DNA from: a bacterium
GTDB lineage: Bacteria > SZUA-79 > Acidulodesulfobacterales > Acidulodesulfobacteraceae
Direction of reading: 5' to 3'
DNA: 42,377 nt
NCBI GenBank assembly: GCA_021795355.1
Contig: JAJYPL010000010.1
Coordinates: forward strand, 1-42,377
Shown here: positions 10,754 to 39,105 of the stretch, piece after piece
Layout: each line of letters opens with the position of its first letter
How positions within the stretch are numbered: the stretch's first letter is position 1
Made by a program: the position numbers and the translations under genes
The notes under the pieces: generated by a model
Seen by the model: only the letters and a program-made list of their open reading frames with translations
Told to the model about the DNA's origin: nothing
Databases searched by the model: none

Positions 10754-11782
10754 TTATAAATTTTTATGAATGCAAAAAACGTTAGTCGTATCGCAGGCAG
10801 ATAATTCGGGCTGAATTACCGTGTGATTTATATTAAATTTTTCCTCCATAACGTCTTGAATGTTATTTATAATACAGCAAATATCCGAAGATTTAACTAC
10901 GGTCGGCTCGACGAGTACGTGTGCGCTCATAAGCTTAAAAGATTTAGACATGCTCCATATGTGAAGGTCGTGAACGTTTTTTACGCCCGGAGTTTTTAAT
11001 ATTTCTTCTTTGACTTGGGTAAAATCAATTTCTTTCGGCACTCCTTCAAGCAATATGTTTATAGTTTCGTTAATCACAGAAAATGCGCCTAAAGCGAGCA
11101 GGGGCGATATCATAAGGCTTATAATCGGATCTATATAATAATAACCGGTTAAATAAATAATTATTCCGCCGGCAATAATCGATAAAGAAACCAAAGAATC
11201 GCCGAGTATATGGAAAAAAGAGCTTTTAAGATTTAAATTATGATGCATTCCGCCGTGTATTTTAAAACCTATAAAACCGTTAATAATTAAGCTTATAAGG
11301 GGAAAAATAATCATAATATTTGAATTTATTTTTTCGGGGTGCATCAGCCTTAAATAGCTTTCGTATATCAAAATGACGGAAAGCATAAGGAGTAAAAGGG
11401 AATTTAGAAGAGCGGCGAGTATTCCTATTCTGTGATAGCCGTAAGTATTTTTTTCAGAAGGACTTTTTCTTACCTGTATCTGGGCAAACCATGCCAAAAA
11501 AAGCGACGTCGCATCGACTAAAACATGTCCGGATTCGGAATATAATGCCATGCTTTTAGATAATACGGCGCCGGTAAATTCAATCGCCAGTATTAACAAG
11601 GTCAGCAAAAAAGCTAATTTCAGTTTTTTTTCGGTTTGAAATGTTTCGGTAAAGAGGTGCAAGGAATGACTATGGTCGTGATTAAGTCCATAGTCGTGAT
11701 TATGGTTACGGCTGCCGCTATGATTATGAATCTCCTTGTGTACGCCGTCTTCATTATCATCGTAATAACAGATATTATCCAT
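10754..11782 (-). CDS. Cation diffusion facilitator (Zn/Co/Cd-type) efflux protein
   Basis: Inner-membrane metal/proton antiporter of the CDF (CzcD/ZitB) family. A histidine-rich cytosolic leader fills about residues 15-45 (HNHSGSRNHNHDYGLNHDHSH) and probably collects metal. Six membrane helices follow. The intramembrane metal site appears as two HxxxD motifs, H-V-L-V-D in SGHVLVDA and H-I-L-G-D in FHILGDS. The C-terminal cytosolic domain includes VKNVHDLHIWSMSKSFKLMSAHV. At 342 residues it is full length. It lies 88 bp upstream of fumarase alpha on the same strand but is probably transcribed separately. Confidence 0.92.
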   Translation of the reverse strand: MDNICYYDDNEDGVHKEIHNHSGSRNHNHDYGLNHDHSHSLHLFTETFQTEKKLKLAFLLTLLILAIEFTGAVLSKSMALYSESGHVLVDATSLFLAWFAQIQVRKSPSEKNTYGYHRIGILAALLNSLLLLMLSVILIYESYLRLMHPEKINSNIMIIFPLISLIINGFIGFKIHGGMHHNLNLKSSFFHILGDSLVSLSIIAGGIIIYLTGYYYIDPIISLMISPLLALGAFSVINETINILLEGVPKEIDFTQVKEEILKTPGVKNVHDLHIWSMSKSFKLMSAHVLVEPTVVKSSDICCIINNIQDVMEEKFNINHTVIQPELSACDTTNVFCIHKNL

Positions 11783-25330: not shown

Positions 25331-25576
25331 ATGAGAAGAACGCAAATATATTTAGACGATGAAATATACGAAATTTTAAAAAAAGAAAGTTTAATTGCAG
25401 GTAAAAGCACATCTCAAATAATAAGAGAAAACCTCAAAAAAAACTTGTTGAATAAAAGGAATAAAATATCGGATGCCATAGACAACTCTAAGGGTGCGTG
25501 GAAGGACAGGCCGGATTTTAAAATTAACTATTTTGTTAGAAAATTAAGAAAGGGAAATAGAATTGATAATTTTTGA
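25331..25576 (+). CDS. vapB: VapB-type ribbon-helix-helix antitoxin
   Basis: An 81-residue CopG/RHH-type protein: RRTQIYLDDEIYEILKKES is the DNA-binding ribbon, then AGKSTSQIIRENLKKN forms the helices, and the C-terminal tail (DNSKGAWKDRPDF) should wrap the toxin. The ATG at 25331 is chosen over one 30 bases upstream because AAAGGAGG lies just before it. Its 3' end overlaps the toxin start by 14 bases, the usual antitoxin-first operon that autorepresses its own promoter. Confidence 0.88.
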   Translation: MRRTQIYLDDEIYEILKKESLIAGKSTSQIIRENLKKNLLNKRNKISDAIDNSKGAWKDRPDFKINYFVRKLRKGNRIDNF

Positions 25577-25946
25577 TACTGATATTATTATCTGGATATT
25601 AAGAGGCAAAGAAACAATAGTAGCCGACGCAAAACGCTTATCCGAAGAAACATCGGGTAAAATATATATTACACCCGTTCAGGTTGCCGAGGTTTATTCG
25701 GGAATGAAGGAGAAAGAGGAAAGAAAAACCCGTGAACTTATAGAAAGTTTTTATTTTTTAGATATAAATAAAAGAATAGGCGAATTAGCCGGTATATATT
25801 TAAATAAATATAGGAAGTCCCATCAAATAGAGCTTGCAGATGCAATTATAGGAGCTTCGGCAAAAAATTACAATTTTAAATTATTTACTTTAAACACAAA
25901 GCACTACCCTATGCTTAGCAAAAACAATTTAATATCCGAATATTAA
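25563..25946 (+). CDS. vapC: VapC-type PIN-domain ribonuclease toxin
   Basis: A 127-residue PIN-domain protein. Acidic metal-binding residues occur in IIFDTDIIIW (D5, D7), PVQVAEVYSGM (Glu) and HQIELADAIIGASA (Asp), with LFTLNTKHYPML near the end. These are the expected catalytic positions for a Mg-dependent RNase of the VapC group. The start is a TTG at 25563 inside vapB, preceded by AGGGAAA. It sits 26 bp upstream of hsdM, at the left side of the accessory block. Confidence 0.88.
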   Translation: MIIFDTDIIIWILRGKETIVADAKRLSEETSGKIYITPVQVAEVYSGMKEKEERKTRELIESFYFLDINKRIGELAGIYLNKYRKSHQIELADAIIGASAKNYNFKLFTLNTKHYPMLSKNNLISEY

Positions 25947-25972
25947 ATTTATATTATAAAAAAGGATTATAA

Positions 25973-27526
25973 ATGGCGAAGATTAACGGCAATAATAGTT
26001 CAAATCAGGCGGGAGATATAGGTTTTACTTCCAAGCTCTGGCAGACGGCGGATAAGATGCGCAACAATATGGATGCCGCAGAATATAAACATGTAGTTTT
26101 AGGACTTATATTTCTTAAATATATTTCAGACTCGTTTATCGAGCGTTACAGCGAGTTATTAAATAATCCTGAAGCAGATCCCGAAGAATTGGATGAATAT
26201 AAATCCGAAAACATATTTTACGTTCCGCAAAAAGCCAGATGGGATTACCTGCAGAATAATGCCAAACAGCCGCATATAGGTAAGTTAATAGACGACGCAA
26301 TGACCGAAATAGAAAATATTAATCCAGTATTAAAAGGCGTTCTTCCTAAGAATTATGCAAGGGAAGGATTAGACAAACAGCGTCTCGGCGAACTTATAGA
26401 TTTAATAGGCACGATTGGTTTAGGCGAGAAAGAAAACATAAGCAGGGATATACCCGGTCGTGTTTACGAGTATTTTTTAGGGCAGTTTGCGGATGCGGAA
26501 GGTAAAAAAGGCGGGCAGTTTTATACTCCGAGATGCATAGTTAAACTTCTTACGCAGATGATAGAGCCGTATAAAGGCAGAGTATATGACCCTTGCTGCG
26601 GCTCCGGCGGAATGTTCGTCCAGTCAGAAAAATTCGTTCAGGAACACGGAGGAAGGATAGGCGATATTTCCATTTACGGGCAGGAGAGCAATCAGACTAC
26701 ATGGCGGCTTTGTAAAATGAACCTTGCTATCCGCAGGATAGAAGCCGATATCCAGTGGAATAACGAAGGAAGTTTTTTAAACGACGCACATAAAACCTTA
26801 AAAGCCGATTTTATTCTTGCCAATCCTCCTTTTAACGATTCAGACTGGAGAGGCGAACTTTTAAAGGACGACGTCCGCTGGAAATACGGCGTTCCTCCGG
26901 TTAATAATGCAAACTTTGCATGGATTCAGCATTTTATCTTTCATCTGTCCCCGACCGGTATAGCGGGCTTTGTCCTTTCCAACGGTTCGATGAGTTCCAA
27001 TACTTCTAACGAAGGAGAAATTAGAAAAAATATAATAGAGGCCGATTTAATTGACTGTATGGTCGCCCTTCCCTCCCAGCTGTTTTACAACACTATGATT
27101 CCGGCCTGCCTGTGGTTTATAGCCCGCGACAAAAAGAACCATAAATTCAGGGACAGAAGGGATGAAGTTTTGTTTATAGACGCCCGCGAAATGGGAGTTA
27201 TGCTCGACAGAAGACACAGAGAGCTTACAGATGAAGAAATTAATAAAATTGCAGATACTTACCATGCATTCAGGGGCGAAGGAGGCGAGTATCAAGATAT
27301 TGCCGGTTTCTGCAAAGCAGCGGCCATTGAAGAAATAAAAAAGCAGGGCTATATTTTAACGCCGGGCAGATATGTCGGCACTAAAGAAACGGAAGAAGAC
27401 GACGAAGTATTCGAAGAAAAGATAAAACGGCTGACGGCGGAATTATCGAAGCAGATGGAAGAAGAGAAAAGGCTGGACGAAGAAATAAAAATACAACTGG
27501 CTAAAATAGGGCTGAATTTGGAATAA
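25973..27526 (+). CDS. hsdM: Type I restriction-modification methyltransferase subunit
   Basis: N6-adenine DNA methyltransferase, the M subunit of a type I system. The N-terminal HsdM domain (about residues 15-150, [32 protein letters not shown]) precedes the AdoMet motif [10 protein letters not shown] (206-215) and the catalytic NPPF at 284-287. The C-terminal coil (about 470-517) would contact HsdS. The 517 residues are full length. There is no specificity subunit (hsdS) or nuclease (hsdR) next to it; a truncated RhuM gene follows after 6 bp. Without HsdS it would not be expected to methylate specifically, unless an hsdS elsewhere serves it. Confidence 0.93.
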
Positions 27527-27532
27527 GAATTT

Positions 27533-28255
27533 ATGAAAAATATTAAAAATGAAATAGCTATATATCAGTCGGAAAGCGGGGCAATCGAATTAAGGGGCGA
27601 TTGGCAAAATGAAACTATATGGGCAACGCAAGCTCAGATTGCAAATTTATTTAAATTAGATAGGACAGCAATAACTAAACATATAAAAAATATAATTAAA
27701 TTTGGTGAAATTGATGAAAAAAGCAATGTGCAAAAAATGCACATTGCAAATTCTGATAAGCCTGTCGCTTTTTATTCTTTAGATATAATTTTGGCTATTG
27801 GCTACAGAGTAAATTCCAAAACAGCCATTAAATTTCGCAGGTGGGCGTCCGAAGTTTTAAAACAGCATATTTTTAAAGGTTTTACAGTCAACAAAGAACG
27901 TATTGCGTCAAATTATAAACTATTCTTAAAAGCGTTAGACGATGTAAAAGCTCTTTTGCCGGAAAGCAGTAAGACAAATACGGTAAATATCTTAGAACTC
28001 GTATCTATTTTTGCAGATACATGGTTTTCTTTAAATGCCTATGATGCAGAAGAATTACCAAAGTCAGCCCAATTTTTGTTTTATCAGTTTATAAATTTTT
28101 TTCATTTTTTAAGATACAACAAATATACGCTTAAACAGGCCTTTCTTTACCGGTTTTATGACCGGCTTGTAAGATTCAAGGTCGGCTACTATATCTTCAG
28201 GCTCCCCCTTTTTATCTTTATTTCTTTTTTTCTTTCCAACCGTAAAACGTCTTAA
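27533..28255 (+). CDS. RhuM-family protein, C-terminally truncated
   Basis: The first about 180 residues match the RhuM (virulence-associated) family: EIAIYQSESGAIELRG, NETIWATQAQIANLF, TAITKHIKNI and SLDIILAIGYRVNSKTAIKFRRWASEVLKQHIFKGF. In many relatives this part is followed by a longer C-terminal region, in some a Fic/Doc domain. Here it stops at about 28070 (EELPKSA), and the last 60 residues are read through foreign DNA: bases 28114-28198 are an antisense copy of the 3' end of the gene at 29882-30301. So the ORF is open but the native C-terminus has been replaced. RhuM genes often sit inside type I RM loci, as here. Function is unknown and this copy is probably inactive. Confidence 0.7.
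   Translation: MKNIKNEIAIYQSESGAIELRGDWQNETIWATQAQIANLFKLDRTAITKHIKNIIKFGEIDEKSNVQKMHIANSDKPVAFYSLDIILAIGYRVNSKTAIKFRRWASEVLKQHIFKGFTVNKERIASNYKLFLKALDDVKALLPESSKTNTVNILELVSIFADTWFSLNAYDAEELPKSAQFLFYQFINFFHFLRYNKYTLKQAFLYRFYDRLVRFKVGYYIFRLPLFIFISFFLSNRKTS
28114..28198 (-). pseudogene. Duplicated 3' fragment of the unknown gene at 29882-30301
   Basis: This stretch aligns with 29884-29965 with five substitutions and one 3-base gap, so the reading frame is kept. On the minus strand it encodes EDIVADLESYKPVIKPVKKG followed by LFKRIFVVS and a stop, against EDIADLESYKPVIKPAKKG and LFKRIFVV in the intact gene. Upstream of it the frame continues for about 35 residues of unrelated lysine-rich sequence without a start codon. 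It is a remnant produced by duplication or by loss of a second paralogue. Confidence 0.7.
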
Positions 28256-30301: not shown

Positions 30302-30520
30302 AATTCTCTCTCCTTTTTATTTTTCAGTTTTTAGGGAATTAAATAAATGCTAATTATTTCAAATAATTCCAATATTTTTCTATACTAAAATCTATACTAA
30401 AAATTATAACACAAATTCAAATATAAAAATTTTTTTATATGATATAATTATAATAAAATTAGAACTTATTTAGCAATTATAAATATAAAATAAATATAAA
30501 ATTCGATTAAAAAATAAATA

Positions 30521-31432
30521 ATGAAGATAATGAAAAAAATTAATTTTTTAAAAAAAATAGACGCGTGGCAGTTGGGAATATTCGTCGTAGTAATAAGTTT
30601 ATTTTCGGTAATACTGTCTTTAATTCTTTTGTTCTTGGATTATAAGCATCCTAATTTATGGGAGGCGCGCGGCGAAGTCAGCGCTTCGCTAACTTCTTCC
30701 CTAGCGGTACTTGCCGCCGTTATAGCGATATTTATAGGTTTAAGGGTGCAGTCGAGCGAGCACAAAGCGACGGAAGACATAAAAACCGATTTAATTGAAA
30801 TTAACGGGCTGCTTAATAACTTGATTTCTATTTTTACGGTTATTAAAGCCAATTATAATTCCGAAGCGAAAATTATAAAAAGCTTAGACCTTTTGCCGCT
30901 TAAAGATACTTTAAACAGATTTTTGATTTCTTCGACGTATTTCGGCCTGACTTATTATTTTTATATTAATCAGGAAAAAACGAAATATTTTTTCAGGGTT
31001 TTCGCTCTGGATTTAACCTATATACAATTTTTTTTGAGTATGCAGGGCGAAGGCAGAGATATCAGCAAGATAACTATTCCGGAACATGCGATTGCCGAGG
31101 TGCGCACGGCTTTGAGCGGGCTTAAAGAAAAAGATGTCGAAGAAATAGCGTCTTATATGTCGTCGTCTTTAATAAAATTAATCGAAAAAAACAACGAGAT
31201 AATGAACGAAAACCCGTTAATAAAATTATTTCAGGAATTAATGGAAGAAAAAGATTCCGATAACATTTTTTCGGTAGATTTGGCAAAAGCGGAAAAACTT
31301 ATATCCGGTATAAACAACATCGAACTGAAAAATAATCTGACGGAGATTTTAGATAAAGCAAAAAATAACGACAACGAGTCGAAAATGCTTTTAAGCACGG
31401 TTATAGAAAAATTTTCTCTTTATAATAAATAA
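30521..31432 (+). CDS. Hypothetical two-TM membrane protein
   Basis: A 303-residue protein I cannot assign. Two membrane helices lie near the N-terminus (about residues 17-40, LGIFVVVISLFSVILSLILL, and 60-80, SLAVLAAVIAIFIGL), followed by a long, mostly helical, charged cytosolic part with repeated NN and KAEKLISGI-type segments. There is a second in-frame ATG 9 bases on, and neither has a clear ribosome site. The 219 bp upstream are very AT-rich with no other feature. It is followed after 16 bp by the glucan phosphorylase, which may share its transcript. Confidence 0.65.
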   Translation: MKIMKKINFLKKIDAWQLGIFVVVISLFSVILSLILLFLDYKHPNLWEARGEVSASLTSSLAVLAAVIAIFIGLRVQSSEHKATEDIKTDLIEINGLLNNLISIFTVIKANYNSEAKIIKSLDLLPLKDTLNRFLISSTYFGLTYYFYINQEKTKYFFRVFALDLTYIQFFLSMQGEGRDISKITIPEHAIAEVRTALSGLKEKDVEEIASYMSSSLIKLIEKNNEIMNENPLIKLFQELMEEKDSDNIFSVDLAKAEKLISGINNIELKNNLTEILDKAKNNDNESKMLLSTVIEKFSLYNK

Positions 31433-33953: not shown

Positions 33954-34019
33954 ATTATATCGGCTTTGGTTAAAAATGTTATATATTGCATACTATATAA
34001 ATTTTTTTTTATATTTTGC

Positions 34020-34048
34020 TTGACTATATAAAAAAAATTTTATATACT
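34020..34048 (+). promoter_or_regulatory. Sigma-70-type promoter of the metal-efflux operon
   Basis: TTGACT (34020-34025), a 17-base spacer and TATACT (34043-34048) form the best promoter match in the window. It lies about 115 bases before the Cys-rich gene, with the palindrome at 34075-34092 some 27 bases after the -10 element, a position where a bound repressor would block transcription. Confidence 0.55.
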
Positions 34049-34074
34049 TAAATTATATTATGATAGTATCTTTT

Positions 34075-34092
34075 TTAATCATGCATGATTAA
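34075..34092. promoter_or_regulatory. Perfect 18-bp palindrome, likely operator
   Basis: TTAATCATGCATGATTAA is a perfect palindrome located in the presumed leader of the efflux operon. ArsR-family repressors bind inverted repeats of this size, and an ArsR gene is second in the operon, so autoregulation through this site is likely. That assignment is inference. Confidence 0.5.
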
Positions 34093-34161
34093 ATAATTTT
34101 TGTTTAACGAAAAATTTATTATTTAATTTTTATTAAATTGAATGTAGAAAAGGAGGTATAA

Positions 34162-34512
34162 GTGTCCGGAAACAATATGAATTCCTGCGGATGCGGGTCG
34201 GGAAAAGCTAAAAAAACTACCCCCAGAGAAGCGGTGGTGGATATAAAAAATCTGGAAAACGGCGTGCTTGTTGAGTTAAACGCCGAAGAAGTTTCAAAGA
34301 GCGATATGGAAAAGAGCATAGAAAATTGCAATACCGGAAAATGCGACTGCCTGAATGATTCGCAGAAAGCCAGAATAAAATCTATTTCTTTAAAAGAAGG
34401 AGATTTTGGAAGTCTTTCCGTTGAAATTGAAGGCGATATCGACAAGGAAGAAATAAAACAGGCTATGGAAAAAGCGGCAAAAAACCAGAAAAAAGGTTCC
34501 TGCTGCTGCTAA
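34162..34512 (+). CDS. Small cysteine-rich protein, putative metal/metalloid binder
   Basis: A 116-residue, highly charged protein of no family I recognise. Its eight cysteines are clustered: C9 and C11 (SCGCGSGKAKK), C56, C61 and C63 (CNTGKCDC), and three at the extreme C-terminus (C114-C116, GSCCC). No signal peptide or membrane helix. The start is a GTG preceded by AAAGGAGG, 5 bases away. Cysteine pairs at both ends of a charged linker suggest soft-metal or arsenite binding, perhaps as a chaperone or buffer delivering metal to ArsR or the pump. It is the first gene of the arsR-tolC-hlyD-emrB cluster, 22 bp before arsR. Confidence 0.7.
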   Translation: MSGNNMNSCGCGSGKAKKTTPREAVVDIKNLENGVLVELNAEEVSKSDMEKSIENCNTGKCDCLNDSQKARIKSISLKEGDFGSLSVEIEGDIDKEEIKQAMEKAAKNQKKGSCCC

Positions 34513-34534
34513 ATAAATATAAATAAAACAAGCC

Positions 34535-34876
34535 ATGAAAGAAGCGTTAAAAATTTTAGGAAGCACAGAAGATTTTGAGTCTATAGATATATCTTCAGAT
34601 ATATCTATAGACGGTCTCAGGGATATTTTTTACGCTTTATCGGATAAGATTAGGCTTGAGATTATAAGCCTGTTAATCGATAACGGAGAAATGTGCGTCT
34701 GTAAATTTCAGGAAATTTTTAAAATATCCCAGCCTAATCTTTCTTTTCATCTCGGCATACTTAGAAAATCCGGTCTCGTTAAGACCAGAAGAAAAGGCAC
34801 ATGGATGAACTACAGCCTTAACGGCGAAAACGAAGTTCTTAAAAATTTGATTCCACTAATAAAAAAAGCGTTATAA
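34535..34876 (+). CDS. arsR: ArsR-family metalloregulator
   Basis: Winged-helix repressor of 113 residues. The helix ahead of the recognition helix carries CVC (GEMCVCKFQEIF), the As(III)/Sb(III) site of classical ArsR (consensus ELCVCDL), and the recognition region is ISQPNLSFHLGILRKSGLVKTRRKGTWMNYSL. An N-terminal extension of about 25 residues (LGSTEDFESIDISSDISIDG) precedes the usual start of the fold and is encoded by a large palindrome. Arsenite or antimonite release from the operator is the expected trigger. It lies between the Cys-rich gene and the efflux genes, and probably represses all of them. Confidence 0.88.
   Translation: MKEALKILGSTEDFESIDISSDISIDGLRDIFYALSDKIRLEIISLLIDNGEMCVCKFQEIFKISQPNLSFHLGILRKSGLVKTRRKGTWMNYSLNGENEVLKNLIPLIKKAL
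34579..34612. other. 34-bp near-perfect palindrome inside arsR coding sequence
   Basis: Arms 34579-34594 (GTCTATAGATATATCT) and 34597-34612 are exact inverted copies around a 2-base centre. It encodes residues of the N-terminal extension of ArsR (ESIDISSDISID). It could be an additional operator, an mRNA hairpin limiting arsR translation or message stability, or an insertion scar. The sequence itself does not choose. Confidence 0.7.
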
Positions 34877-34925
34877 TAATAAATAAAATATATAAAATGG
34901 AAACATACTCAGGCGATAAAATGAA

Positions 34926-36419
34926 ATGAAAAAAAATATAATTGCATCCGTTTTTTTATTAATTATTTTTTATATAATAAGCCTAGTATTGCCGCTAAAC
35001 GTTTACGCAAAAACAAACAAAAAAACGTTTTCGTTTGTCGATAAAGGTTCCGTTAAAAACAAGCATAAATATAGCGGCGGCGTTTATATCGGGCAGAAGG
35101 AGGCTCAAAACGGAGTATATACCGTAAACAAGGCCGTCAGGCAGGCGCTGAAAAATAACGATTTAATAAAAAGCGCGGTTCAAAGGGTTAAGGCGGCGCA
35201 GGCAAATTTTAAAGCTATTACTGCTGGCATGCTGCCGAAACTTTCACTTAATTACAATGCGGCGAGGATGGAATACCAGCCTTATCTTCAGACAAAACAT
35301 CAGCCTATACCGACGTTCACCGGCGCGGGTGCAAAAAACGGCTATATGTATTTCCCTCCCCGCATATACATGAATGCAGATACTAATTTTAACTGGAGCC
35401 TCGAAATAACCCAGCCTGTTTTTACCGGCTTTGCGCTTCTCGATAAAAGGGAGCTTGCTAAAATAGGGATTAATATATCGAGAGTCCAGAAGCAGGAAGC
35501 GGTTTTAAACGTTATTGAAGGCGTAAAATTCGCTTATTTTAACGTTTTAAGGGCGCAGGAACAGTTAAAAGTAGCGGAAGAACAGGTAAAATCTTTAAAA
35601 TCCCACGACATGCAGGCGAAACTCCTTTACAAGCAGGGCGTAATTCCTTATAACGACCTGCTGAAATCCGAAGTCGCTCTTGCCGACGCCGTGCAGTATA
35701 AAACATCGTCTAATGCCGCATTAAATATAGCGGTGTCTAATTTCAACACCGTTCTGAATCAAAACATAAACGCAAAAGACGGTTTTAAAAATATTCGCTT
35801 CGTAAGTTTTAAGAGATACGGATTAAGCCCTCTTTTCGTTTACGCCTTAAGACACAGGCCGGGATTAAAAATTTTCAGGTTTAAAATTAAGCAGGAGACG
35901 CTTAAAGAAAAGATTGCTAACAGCAGGTATTATCCTCAGGTGTCGGCTTTTGCCGCATATTCGCAGTCCGGCCAAAACTGGCTTGCGGAAAACAACACCT
36001 TTAATAATCAGGAAAATAAGATAATAGGTTTGAGCGCCACGTGGACGCTGTTTAACTGGTTTAAAACTTCGGATAATTACCAGAAAGAAAAGCATGAAAA
36101 GACTGCTTTAAAATACAGCCTTAAATCTTATATAAACGACGTCAGGCTTGAAGTTAAAAGCGACCTGTTAAATCTTCAAACGGCTTTTAAAAATATTAAA
36201 GCCGCAAAATTGTCGGTCAGGCAGGCGGAAGAAAATCTTAAAATTACAAATTTACAGTATATACAGGAAACTACCACGTCAACCGAGGTTTTAGACGCCG
36301 AAACTTATCTGAAACATGCCGAATTAAACTATTACGATTCGCTTTACGGATACGATATATATTTAGCTAAGCTTCAAAGAGATATAGGAGATATGGGGAG
36401 GAACGTTTATGGAGAATAA
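34926..36419 (+). CDS. TolC-family outer membrane efflux protein
   Basis: Outer-membrane channel of a tripartite exporter, 497 residues. A signal peptide runs to about residue 29 (IIASVFLLIIFYIISLVLPLNVYAKT). The mature part has the duplicated OEP repeat: helices with VNKAVRQALKNNDLIKSAVQRVKAAQANFKAI and, in the second half, LRHRPGLKIFRFKIKQETLKEKIANSRYYPQVSAFAAYSQSG (key part RYYPQVSAFAAYSQSG), ending with LQYIQETTTSTEVLDAETYLKHAELNYYDSLYGYDI. The start is the ATG at 34926; an ATG five bases earlier runs into a stop at once. Its 3' end overlaps the hlyD start by 11 bases. Confidence 0.9.
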   Translation: MKKNIIASVFLLIIFYIISLVLPLNVYAKTNKKTFSFVDKGSVKNKHKYSGGVYIGQKEAQNGVYTVNKAVRQALKNNDLIKSAVQRVKAAQANFKAITAGMLPKLSLNYNAARMEYQPYLQTKHQPIPTFTGAGAKNGYMYFPPRIYMNADTNFNWSLEITQPVFTGFALLDKRELAKIGINISRVQKQEAVLNVIEGVKFAYFNVLRAQEQLKVAEEQVKSLKSHDMQAKLLYKQGVIPYNDLLKSEVALADAVQYKTSSNAALNIAVSNFNTVLNQNINAKDGFKNIRFVSFKRYGLSPLFVYALRHRPGLKIFRFKIKQETLKEKIANSRYYPQVSAFAAYSQSGQNWLAENNTFNNQENKIIGLSATWTLFNWFKTSDNYQKEKHEKTALKYSLKSYINDVRLEVKSDLLNLQTAFKNIKAAKLSVRQAEENLKITNLQYIQETTTSTEVLDAETYLKHAELNYYDSLYGYDIYLAKLQRDIGDMGRNVYGE

Positions 36420-37545
36420 AATGAATGAAAACGAAGTAAATACCGATACCGCAGATAAAGTAGCCGCCGATAAAAATGACGGCAGAAAAGAAAACGGAAA
36501 CGGCAAAAAAAGCAGAATAAAAAAGAAATACGTTTTAATTGCGATAATCGTAGTTTTAGTAATCGGGACTATTTTTGAACTTCATAATATCGAATTTTCA
36601 TTCTCCCACGTTACCACGAGCGACGCTTTCGTTGACGGAAGCAGCGCTATAGTGCCAGTTGCGCCTCAGGTTAAGGGTAAAGTCGTAAAAGTATATATAA
36701 AAGAAAACCAGTTCGTAAAAAAAGGGCAGCCGCTCTTTAAAATAGACCAGTCCGATTATATTCAGGACGTAAACAGGGCGCTTGCCGGTTTTAAAGGCAG
36801 TAAAAAAGAGATAAAACAGATATCTATGTCTATTTTGGTCCAAAACAGCGCTTTATCGAAAGCAAGATACCAGCTTAAAGCAGACGAGGCTTTAGAAAAA
36901 TTAGACCGCCAAAATTATATAAGATATAGAAATCTTTATGAAGGAAAGGCGGCTTCAAAACTTATGTTCGATGAAATGGCCACAAAATACAGAATGGCTT
37001 CTGCAAAAGTCGGCGCGGACGAAGCAAACCTGACCCAGATAGCCGCAAGCATAGCGGAATTAAGAACTGCTTTGAAATCAAGGGCATTTTATGCTAAAAC
37101 GGCACTCGCCGCATATAAAATCGCAAAAATTAATCTTCACAGAACCGTAGTTTATGCGCCGTGCAACGGATACGTAACAAAAAAGAACGTAAATGCAGGA
37201 AGTTACGTTATGCCGGGCATTCCCTACCTTAATGTAGTCAATCTTCGTAAAGTCTGGATAGTGGCTAATTTTAAAGAGTCGGACGTGGACAATATAAAAA
37301 TAGGCGCGCCGGTTATTATAACCGTCGATGCATATCCGGGCGTTACTTTTCACGGAACTGTTTCAAGTTTTCAATCGGGAACGGGTTCGGTCTTCAGTCT
37401 TCTTCCGCCGGAAAATGCGACGGGAAACTATATAAAAGTCGTGCAGAGGGTTCCGGTGAAAATTAATTTAAACAAGGAGTTTTACTCTAAGACGCCTCTG
37501 TATCCCGGATTATCCGTAGAACCGTTCGTGAAAATAGAAAAATAG
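36409..37545 (+). CDS. HlyD/EmrA-family membrane fusion protein
   Basis: Periplasmic adaptor of 378 residues. A charged leader of about 40 residues is followed by one membrane anchor (KYVLIAIIVVLVIGTIFEL, about 40-58). SAIVPVAPQVKGKVVKVYIKENQFVKKGQPLFKID is the biotinyl-lipoyl-like motif, then an alpha-hairpin (about 120-225), and the second lipoyl half KINLHRTVVYAPCNGYVTKKNVNAGSYVMPG. VWIVANFKESDVDNIKIGAPVIITVDAYPG is typical of EmrA. The ATG at 36409 is preferred because GGGGAGG stands before it. It bridges the EmrB-like pump and the TolC-like channel. Confidence 0.92.
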   Translation: MENKMNENEVNTDTADKVAADKNDGRKENGNGKKSRIKKKYVLIAIIVVLVIGTIFELHNIEFSFSHVTTSDAFVDGSSAIVPVAPQVKGKVVKVYIKENQFVKKGQPLFKIDQSDYIQDVNRALAGFKGSKKEIKQISMSILVQNSALSKARYQLKADEALEKLDRQNYIRYRNLYEGKAASKLMFDEMATKYRMASAKVGADEANLTQIAASIAELRTALKSRAFYAKTALAAYKIAKINLHRTVVYAPCNGYVTKKNVNAGSYVMPGIPYLNVVNLRKVWIVANFKESDVDNIKIGAPVIITVDAYPGVTFHGTVSSFQSGTGSVFSLLPPENATGNYIKVVQRVPVKINLNKEFYSKTPLYPGLSVEPFVKIEK

Positions 37546-37557
37546 AAAATAATAACC

Positions 37558-39105
37558 ATGGATTTAAAAAATAAATGGCTGATAGTTTTAGCGGTTATTC
37601 CAAGCACCACGCTTTATAGTATGGATATGAGCGTAGTAAACGTCGCCCTGCCTTATATACAAGGCGCGATGGATGCCTCAATAGAGCAGGTTACGTGGGT
37701 AGTTACGGGCTATATGCTTTCGGGCGTTATTTTAATGCCTTTGGTAAGTTTTTTCAGTTCGCGTTTCGGCAGAAAAAATTACTATTTATCGTCCGTTTTT
37801 TTGTTTACCGTTAGTTCCGCATTGTGCGGACTTTCCTGGAATTTAGACTCCATAATCCTTTTCCGCCTGCTTCAGGGCGTAGGAGGCGGGGCGCTTATAC
37901 CTCTGTCGCAAACCTATCTTGCCGAAAATTTTGAAAAAAAGGAGCAGGGAAAGGCTATGGCGATATTCAGTCTTGCGATAGTTTTAGGTCCTGCAATCGG
38001 TCCTTATATCGGCGGCTGGATAGTAACGAACTATTCTTGGCCGTGGGTATTTTACGTTAATCTTCCTATAGGTCTTTTAAATATTATACTTATTTATTTA
38101 ATAATAGAAGACCATCCTTTAATAAAGAGGATAAAAGGAAACGTAGATTGGCTCGGCATAATTTTTTTAACCGTAGGACTCGGAGCAATGCAGATTGTTT
38201 TAACCGACGGTCAGTATAAAAACTGGTTCTCTTCAAGCTATATAGTGAATTTAACTATTATATCGGCAGCCGCTTCGGTACTTTTCGTTATAACGGAGCT
38301 TATAGTCGAAAATCCTGCAGTTAATATTAAAGTTTTAAAAGATATAAATTTGTCCGCAAATTCCTTTCTTTCCATGGTATTCAGCCTCGGAATATTCGGG
38401 AGCCTCTTTCTTTTGCCCATGTTTTTACAGAAAATAATGGGTTATTCTGCATACGATGCCGGCATTGCTATAATGTCGAGGGGTCTTGCGATGGTTATAA
38501 GCATGCCGCTTACCGGCAGGCTGTTTAATAAAGTAGGTCCTAAAATTTTAGTTTTTATAGGGTTTATTCTATCTATTATATCTTCGATTCAGATTGGTTC
38601 TATGAGTCTTAATATGGGATTTTGGGACGTTTTTTGGCCTCAGTTTACGCAGGGTCTCGGTTTCGGTTTAATTATAGTTTCCCTTATGACATCTTCCTTA
38701 ATTACGCTTGAAAATAAATATAAAATAGACGGCGCCGGTTTGTTTAATTTGATAAGGCAGGTTGCCGGTTCTATCGGTATCGCCGTGCTGGCGACAATGA
38801 TAGATAACAACACCCAGATGGCCCATTCCGTTCTTGCTCAAAACGTGAGCGACAATACGCAGACCATGTTATCTTTAAGGAGAGCCGCTCAAATTACGCA
38901 TTCGTTTGTGTTTTATCCTCCGGCAAAAAAGGTACTTGCCTTAATTAACGGTATGATTACCCAGCAATCTACCATGATTGCTTTTAATTTGGCATTTATA
39001 TTTATGGCGGTATGTTTTGCCGTGTCTATACCCGTTATTTTCCTGCTTAAGGGTTCAAAAAGCGCAAAAGACAAAAACGGCTCTTCCTCTATTACCCTTG
39101 AATGA
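37558..39105 (+). CDS. DHA2-family (EmrB/QacA) drug:proton antiporter
   Basis: Inner-membrane pump of 515 residues with about 14 helices, the DHA2 layout. It opens with DMSVVNVALPYIQGAMDASIEQVTWVVTGYMLS, whose D-M-S-V-V-N-V-A-L-P is the family motif D1, and RLLQGVGGGALIPLSQ and LGPAIGPYIGGWI are the motif C (antiporter) region. DQ/ NNxRQ: FNLIRQVAGSIGIAVL is the late EmrB motif. Together with the preceding HlyD and TolC genes it makes a complete EmrAB-TolC-type system. The ArsR and Cys-rich genes upstream suggest an arsenical or other soft-metal compound as the substrate or inducer. A direct test would be needed to name it. Confidence 0.92.
   Translation: MDLKNKWLIVLAVIPSTTLYSMDMSVVNVALPYIQGAMDASIEQVTWVVTGYMLSGVILMPLVSFFSSRFGRKNYYLSSVFLFTVSSALCGLSWNLDSIILFRLLQGVGGGALIPLSQTYLAENFEKKEQGKAMAIFSLAIVLGPAIGPYIGGWIVTNYSWPWVFYVNLPIGLLNIILIYLIIEDHPLIKRIKGNVDWLGIIFLTVGLGAMQIVLTDGQYKNWFSSSYIVNLTIISAAASVLFVITELIVENPAVNIKVLKDINLSANSFLSMVFSLGIFGSLFLLPMFLQKIMGYSAYDAGIAIMSRGLAMVISMPLTGRLFNKVGPKILVFIGFILSIISSIQIGSMSLNMGFWDVFWPQFTQGLGFGLIIVSLMTSSLITLENKYKIDGAGLFNLIRQVAGSIGIAVLATMIDNNTQMAHSVLAQNVSDNTQTMLSLRRAAQITHSFVFYPPAKKVLALINGMITQQSTMIAFNLAFIFMAVCFAVSIPVIFLLKGSKSAKDKNGSSSITLE

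Follow-up and report, generated by a model that had tools for sequence, protein, structure and literature searches.

The well-described arsenic exporters ArsB, Acr3 and ArsP transport their substrates across the inner membrane. In the canonical ars operon (arsR-arsD-arsA-arsB-arsC), the export system is preceded by an ArsR-type repressor with a CVC motif, and the small Cys-containing protein ArsD is encoded next to this sensor. The EmrAB-TolC pump of E. coli has a three-part architecture and is regulated by EmrR, a MarR-type protein. Other MFS proteins tied to arsenic resistance are ArsJ, which exports the arsenate-phosphoglycerate ester made by its GAPDH partner, and the pSinA MFS protein, neither of which is described as a DHA2/HlyD/TolC assembly (PMC6205960). 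TtSmtB of Thermus thermophilus is an ArsR/SmtB repressor with the ELCVC motif that controls arsenic genes dispersed over the chromosome by way of a promoter-overlapping palindrome (PMC5658604).

The locus described here lies within a window of 42,377 bp (the whole stretch of DNA that was analyzed), which corresponds to a single contig from a binned, incomplete genome (1.31 Mb; completeness 66%). Five genes occupy positions 34162-39105 of the plus strand, namely a gene for a Cys-rich protein (hereafter cys, 34162..34512; 116 aa, eight Cys, motifs CGC, CNTGKCDC and CCC), an ArsR/SmtB repressor gene (arsR, 34535..34876), a TolC-family outer membrane channel gene (tolC, 34926..36419; OEP, PF02321, E=5.7e-54), a gene for an EmrA-type HlyD periplasmic adaptor (emrA, 36409..37545; TIGR00998, E about 6e-70, 235.7 bits, short of the 390.8 cut-off) and a gene for an EmrB-type DHA2 MFS pump (emrB, 37558..39105; TIGR00711, 414 bits, above the cut-off of 230). 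The best NCBIfam models for the other two pump subunits, EmrA/EmrK and TolC, both score below cut-off, and the Pfam HlyD and OEP models pass. The first-pass annotation had described a small protein with eight cysteines followed by ArsR, a TolC channel, an HlyD adaptor and a DHA2 pump, all in one direction with short gaps or overlaps, and all five genes are indeed in place, with intergenic gaps of 22, 49, -11 and 12 bp, in this order. A penicillin-binding protein gene follows 113 bp 3' of emrB. Ahead of cys is a sigma-70-like promoter, TTGACT-N17-TATACT (34020..34048, plus strand; 10 of 12 consensus positions), and position 34020, at which the first-pass annotation began the locus, is its -35 box. 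The start codon of cys is GTG, preceded by AAAGGAGGT; in all relatives it is ATG. Across the region, promoter-like and terminator-like sites occur at no higher rate than after shuffling of the sequence. The five genes are likely to be co-transcribed as one unit.

This locus resembles the canonical ars operon in that a CVC ArsR-type repressor precedes a metalloid-linked export system and a small Cys protein adjoins the sensor, but it lacks arsB, acr3, arsA and arsC, its exporter is a three-part MFS pump, and the Cys-rich protein is not ArsD. The architecture of E. coli EmrAB-TolC is retained, with an EmrB that scores above the TIGR00711 cut-off, whereas the operon encodes its own TolC-type channel and has an ArsR at its head. 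The features listed above for TtSmtB recur here, but the neighboring target of that repressor is a P-type ATPase, and the available part of its account describes no Cys-rich partner or three-part pump. Within the window, the reported absence of arsB, acr3 and arsC is correct. The same genome, however, encodes ArsB elsewhere (G000:C39:8433-9695); at the genome level, the implied lack of an ars pump therefore does not hold, and the pump operon is an addition to ArsB. Acr3 was found in none of 30 genomes of the family, compared with 7 of 14 controls that were positive; a canonical-type ars operon is present in the relatives G009, G012 and G019. The operon resembles an ArsR-controlled metalloid efflux operon and is not a canonical ars operon. 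Dispersed ArsR regulons are known, and the new element is the recruited EmrAB-TolC-type pump; no earlier description of an ArsR-controlled EmrAB-TolC operon was found in the open-access literature.

The reading that we prefer, with a probability of roughly 55%, is that an ArsR released by arsenic or antimony switches the cys-arsR-pump operon, the Cys-rich protein binds the metalloid and the pump expels an arsenical or antimonial. In the predicted mechanism, an arsenite/antimonite-type repressor would sit on the AT-rich palindrome that fills the cys promoter spacer, and a trivalent metalloid bound at the CVC cysteines would take ArsR off the DNA. Release would yield a single transcript for the Cys-rich protein, ArsR itself and TolC-EmrA-EmrB. 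The Cys-rich protein would hold thiol-reactive metalloid in the cytoplasm, as a buffer or carrier, and the three pump proteins would move an arsenic or antimony compound, which may be organic or bound to a thiol, out through both membranes, in addition to ArsB. This scheme is supported, at the level of sequence comparison, by the anatomy of the operon, the palindrome, the co-occurrence of the genes, the palindromes at arsB and the pump genes of the sister genus and the arsenic context of related ArsRs.

Conservation of the operon and the cargo of the pump

The first-pass annotation proposed a search for the same gene order in related genomes, and eight genomes of the same genus bear it out: the order is intact in G005, G006, G012 and G014, is cut short in G002 and G009 by contig ends that fall within cys, and is consistent in G001 and G011 as far as the contig end. 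This conservation implies that the five-gene block is more than a chance arrangement. The Cys-rich protein, this ArsR and an EmrB with at least 87% identity to the studied one share one and the same distribution, being encoded in 13 of the 30 genomes of the family (a raw count over related genomes); nine of these belong to the studied genus and four to a sister genus. The other family genomes encode only EmrBs of about 32% identity. Co-occurrence extends to the sister genus, although cys-arsR is there on one contig and the pump genes are on another. In this genus, a JAB-domain peptidase gene follows cys-arsR (L035:6663-9547 and L038:7112-9980), and genes of the DUF134 and dinitrogenase FeMo-cofactor families face cys-arsR in the same loci.

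Metal transport is not signaled by the pump itself, given that TolC, EmrA and EmrB contain 0, 1 and 2 Cys, respectively; Cys90 of EmrB is common to ordinary DHA2 pumps of the same genome. Residues 22-24 of EmrB (37621-37629) are Met-Asp-Met in all 11 copies examined; the other aligning DHA2 pumps of the genome have Leu at position 22 and Val or Met at position 24. The near absence of Cys from the pump is compatible with arsenic being the signal and not the cargo, in which case the pump would export, like an ordinary Emr pump, a hydrophobic toxin or a damaged metabolite of metalloid or thiol stress. Also in favor of this alternative are the EmrB score, which is that of a general DHA2 drug pump, the presence of ArsB to deal with arsenite, and E. 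coli EmrAB, whose diverse hydrophobic substrates include organomercurials (PMC4607518); these organomercurials are also a precedent for an organometal cargo. Nevertheless, this EmrB accompanies cys and arsR in both genera, whether linked to them or not, which suggests a dedicated partnership, and no ArsR adjoins the other DHA2 pumps of the genome, about 32% identical to EmrB. We regard arsenic as a mere signal as rather unlikely. Returning to arsenical or antimonial export, the favored cargo is a compound other than, or besides, free arsenite.

A candidate operator and its scattered copies

The spacer of the cys promoter is occupied by a 22-bp AT-rich palindrome, TATATAAAAWWWWTTTTATATA. The main candidate operator, TATATAAAAAAAATTTTATATA (34025..34046), is a palindrome in the promoter spacer and -10 box; it overlaps the promoter of arsR itself, i.e., the cys promoter, and is conserved. 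The exact pattern of promoter plus palindrome occurs in 10 copies in the 30 genomes, each 5' of cys, and the reversed control gives 0. Thirteen promoters, drawn from two genera, have the block CTTGACTATATAAAAA.A.TTTTATATA unchanged outside its center, whereas the flanking DNA is divergent and the Cys-rich proteins of these two genera are only 55-63% identical. This pattern suggests that the palindrome is an operator bound by ArsR. A second, imperfect operator-like inverted repeat (33994..34015), with 2 mismatches to the operator, is located 5' of the -35 box and has a copy at the equal position in the other aligned members of the genus. A perfect 18-bp palindrome, TTAATCATGCATGATTAA (34075-34092), lies 3' of the promoter and is kept in part within the genus.

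A search for the palindrome with up to two mismatches in nine genomes, followed by reading of the site surroundings, identifies further copies in the sister genus. The palindrome is found 5' of arsB with no mismatches in G025 and G028, one in G016 and two in G029, where it adjoins a masked run; the arsB ATG is 33-247 bp 3' of the palindrome. A copy with 2 mismatches, identical in four of the four genomes, is located 5' of tolC-emrA-emrB; the DNA around it is very AT-rich, and in G016 about eleven sites in 2.2 Mb translate into an estimated chance of about 0.3% for one within 650 bp 5' of tolC. The sister genomes G021 and G023, without cys and arsR, have no palindrome at arsB. Another conserved operator-like site of the sister genus was dropped because it is inside a coding sequence.

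Several observations weigh against the preferred reading. Another sister-genus genome, G027 (C70), has an arsB palindrome with 1 mismatch, yet lacks arsR, cys and a pump of the studied type, and no palindrome is detectable at the arsB promoters of the studied genus (4-7 mismatches). The G027 site may belong to another regulator or be a relic. The preferred reading is further weakened by ArsB already covering arsenite and by the 2 mismatches of the pump site in AT-rich DNA.

One more operator-like site, with 2 mismatches, is located in the window itself (30420..30441), 79 bp 5' of a gene for a 303-aa protein (30521..31432, plus strand) that has two predicted membrane helices by hydropathy and no Pfam match. 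Counterparts of the site occupy this position in G012, in G014 and, at two loci, in G005. The 303-aa gene is directly 5' of cys in G005 and G014 and directly 3' of emrB in the sister-genus genome G016; it is broken in G014 and G029. The 303-aa protein is a probable accessory part of the system. A short G026 contig has a perfect operator together with glgP and the 303-aa gene and stops at the point where cys would start; this contig may be misbinned. Elsewhere in the window, by eye, PIN-domain-like and type I restriction-modification methyltransferase-like genes with an adjoining RhuM-like fragment are seen at 25563-28255, and a cation-diffusion-facilitator-like gene, possibly a further metal exporter, at 10754-11782.

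The sensor and the Cys-rich protein

The ArsR protein matches PF01022 (E=1.4e-14) and the NCBIfam model HTH_metalloreg (NF033788, 88.6 bits, cut-off 55). The CVC arsenic site assigned to it in the first-pass annotation is present in the DNA-binding helix (Cys54 and Cys56) and is conserved in 13 of 13 genomes, but these are the only two cysteines of the protein, whereas the As(III) site of E. coli R773 ArsR consists of three (PMC4287715). The third Cys of this classical three-thiolate site is absent, and the versions from the sister genus contain additional C-terminal Cys. The solved sequences nearest to this ArsR include Lmo1102 and CadC, i.e., CadC-type sensors, which, together with the missing third Cys, argues against As(III). 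The CadC ligands include an extra N-terminal Cys pair (PMC4287715), which is absent from the studied ArsR. In G006, a second arsR-tolC-emrA-emrB copy (C19, L041:3219-7900) is accompanied by an operator and a 24-codon cys remnant, and its ArsR has an added N-terminal GCGCG (Cys8 and Cys10) and thus four cysteines in a CadC-like arrangement.

Of the best-matching ArsRs from outside the family, 17 were fetched as loci; 9 of these ArsRs are beside an Acr3/SBF permease and 6 beside an ArsP_1-family permease. Together with the arsB sites, these permeases point to arsenite or antimonite as the signal of the sensor. The combination of the gene order, the palindrome of the cys promoter, its copies at arsB and (less exact) at the pump genes of the sister genus and the arsenic permeases beside related ArsRs makes arsenic/antimony control likely, in agreement with the metalloid sensor proposed at first, and this ArsR is very probably part of an arsenic/antimony regulon. 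A CadC-like sensor for Cd(II), Pb(II) or a different soft divalent metal, with an operon that handles this metal, would fit the CVC motif common to CadC, the closest solved sequences and the Cys8/Cys10 pair of the paralogous G006 ArsR, but it is improbable given the missing N-terminal pair, the palindrome before the sister-genus arsB, the Acr3 and ArsP_1 permeases that adjoin related ArsRs and the fact that DHA2 pumps are not known as Cd/Pb exporters.

The Cys-rich protein has an invariant core, CNTGKCDC, and matches no Pfam or NCBIfam family above cut-off. It has no sequence match in PDB, and its AlphaFold model (mean pLDDT 71, from 10 sequences) gave no significant fold match with Foldseek. 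Outside the family, short peptide patterns detect no such protein in 84,980 species genomes, and a profile search of 386 genomes detects no relative; two weak outside profile matches (E about 0.002) look unrelated (SurA-like and ABC ATPase, by eye). A relationship to HMA metallochaperones was rejected (20.4 bits against a cut-off of 24.8, covering only residues 81-107, without Cys), as was one to ArsD, given that PF06953 does not match the Cys-rich protein while it matches the G012 ArsD, and the pairwise score is marginal (E=0.004). An N-terminal likeness to the paralogous G006 ArsR is also weak, with a score reached by 34 of 5000 shuffles, and vanishes without the Cys segment. On sequence criteria, the Cys-rich protein is a new family.

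Its role may be that of a buffer, carrier or co-sensor. One possibility is that it provides the third thiolate for the two-Cys ArsR. The most elaborate version, in which it is a new metalloid chaperone and co-sensor that lends ArsR a thiolate and passes bound or thiol-conjugated As/Sb to EmrB, so that the whole would be a dedicated two-membrane exporter, appears quite doubtful. If the operon is metalloid-controlled, a pump that acts through the outer membrane would provide a second line of defense in a lineage without Acr3, a new small Cys-rich family would join metalloid handling, and the scattered regulon would present a testable link between arsB and the pump.
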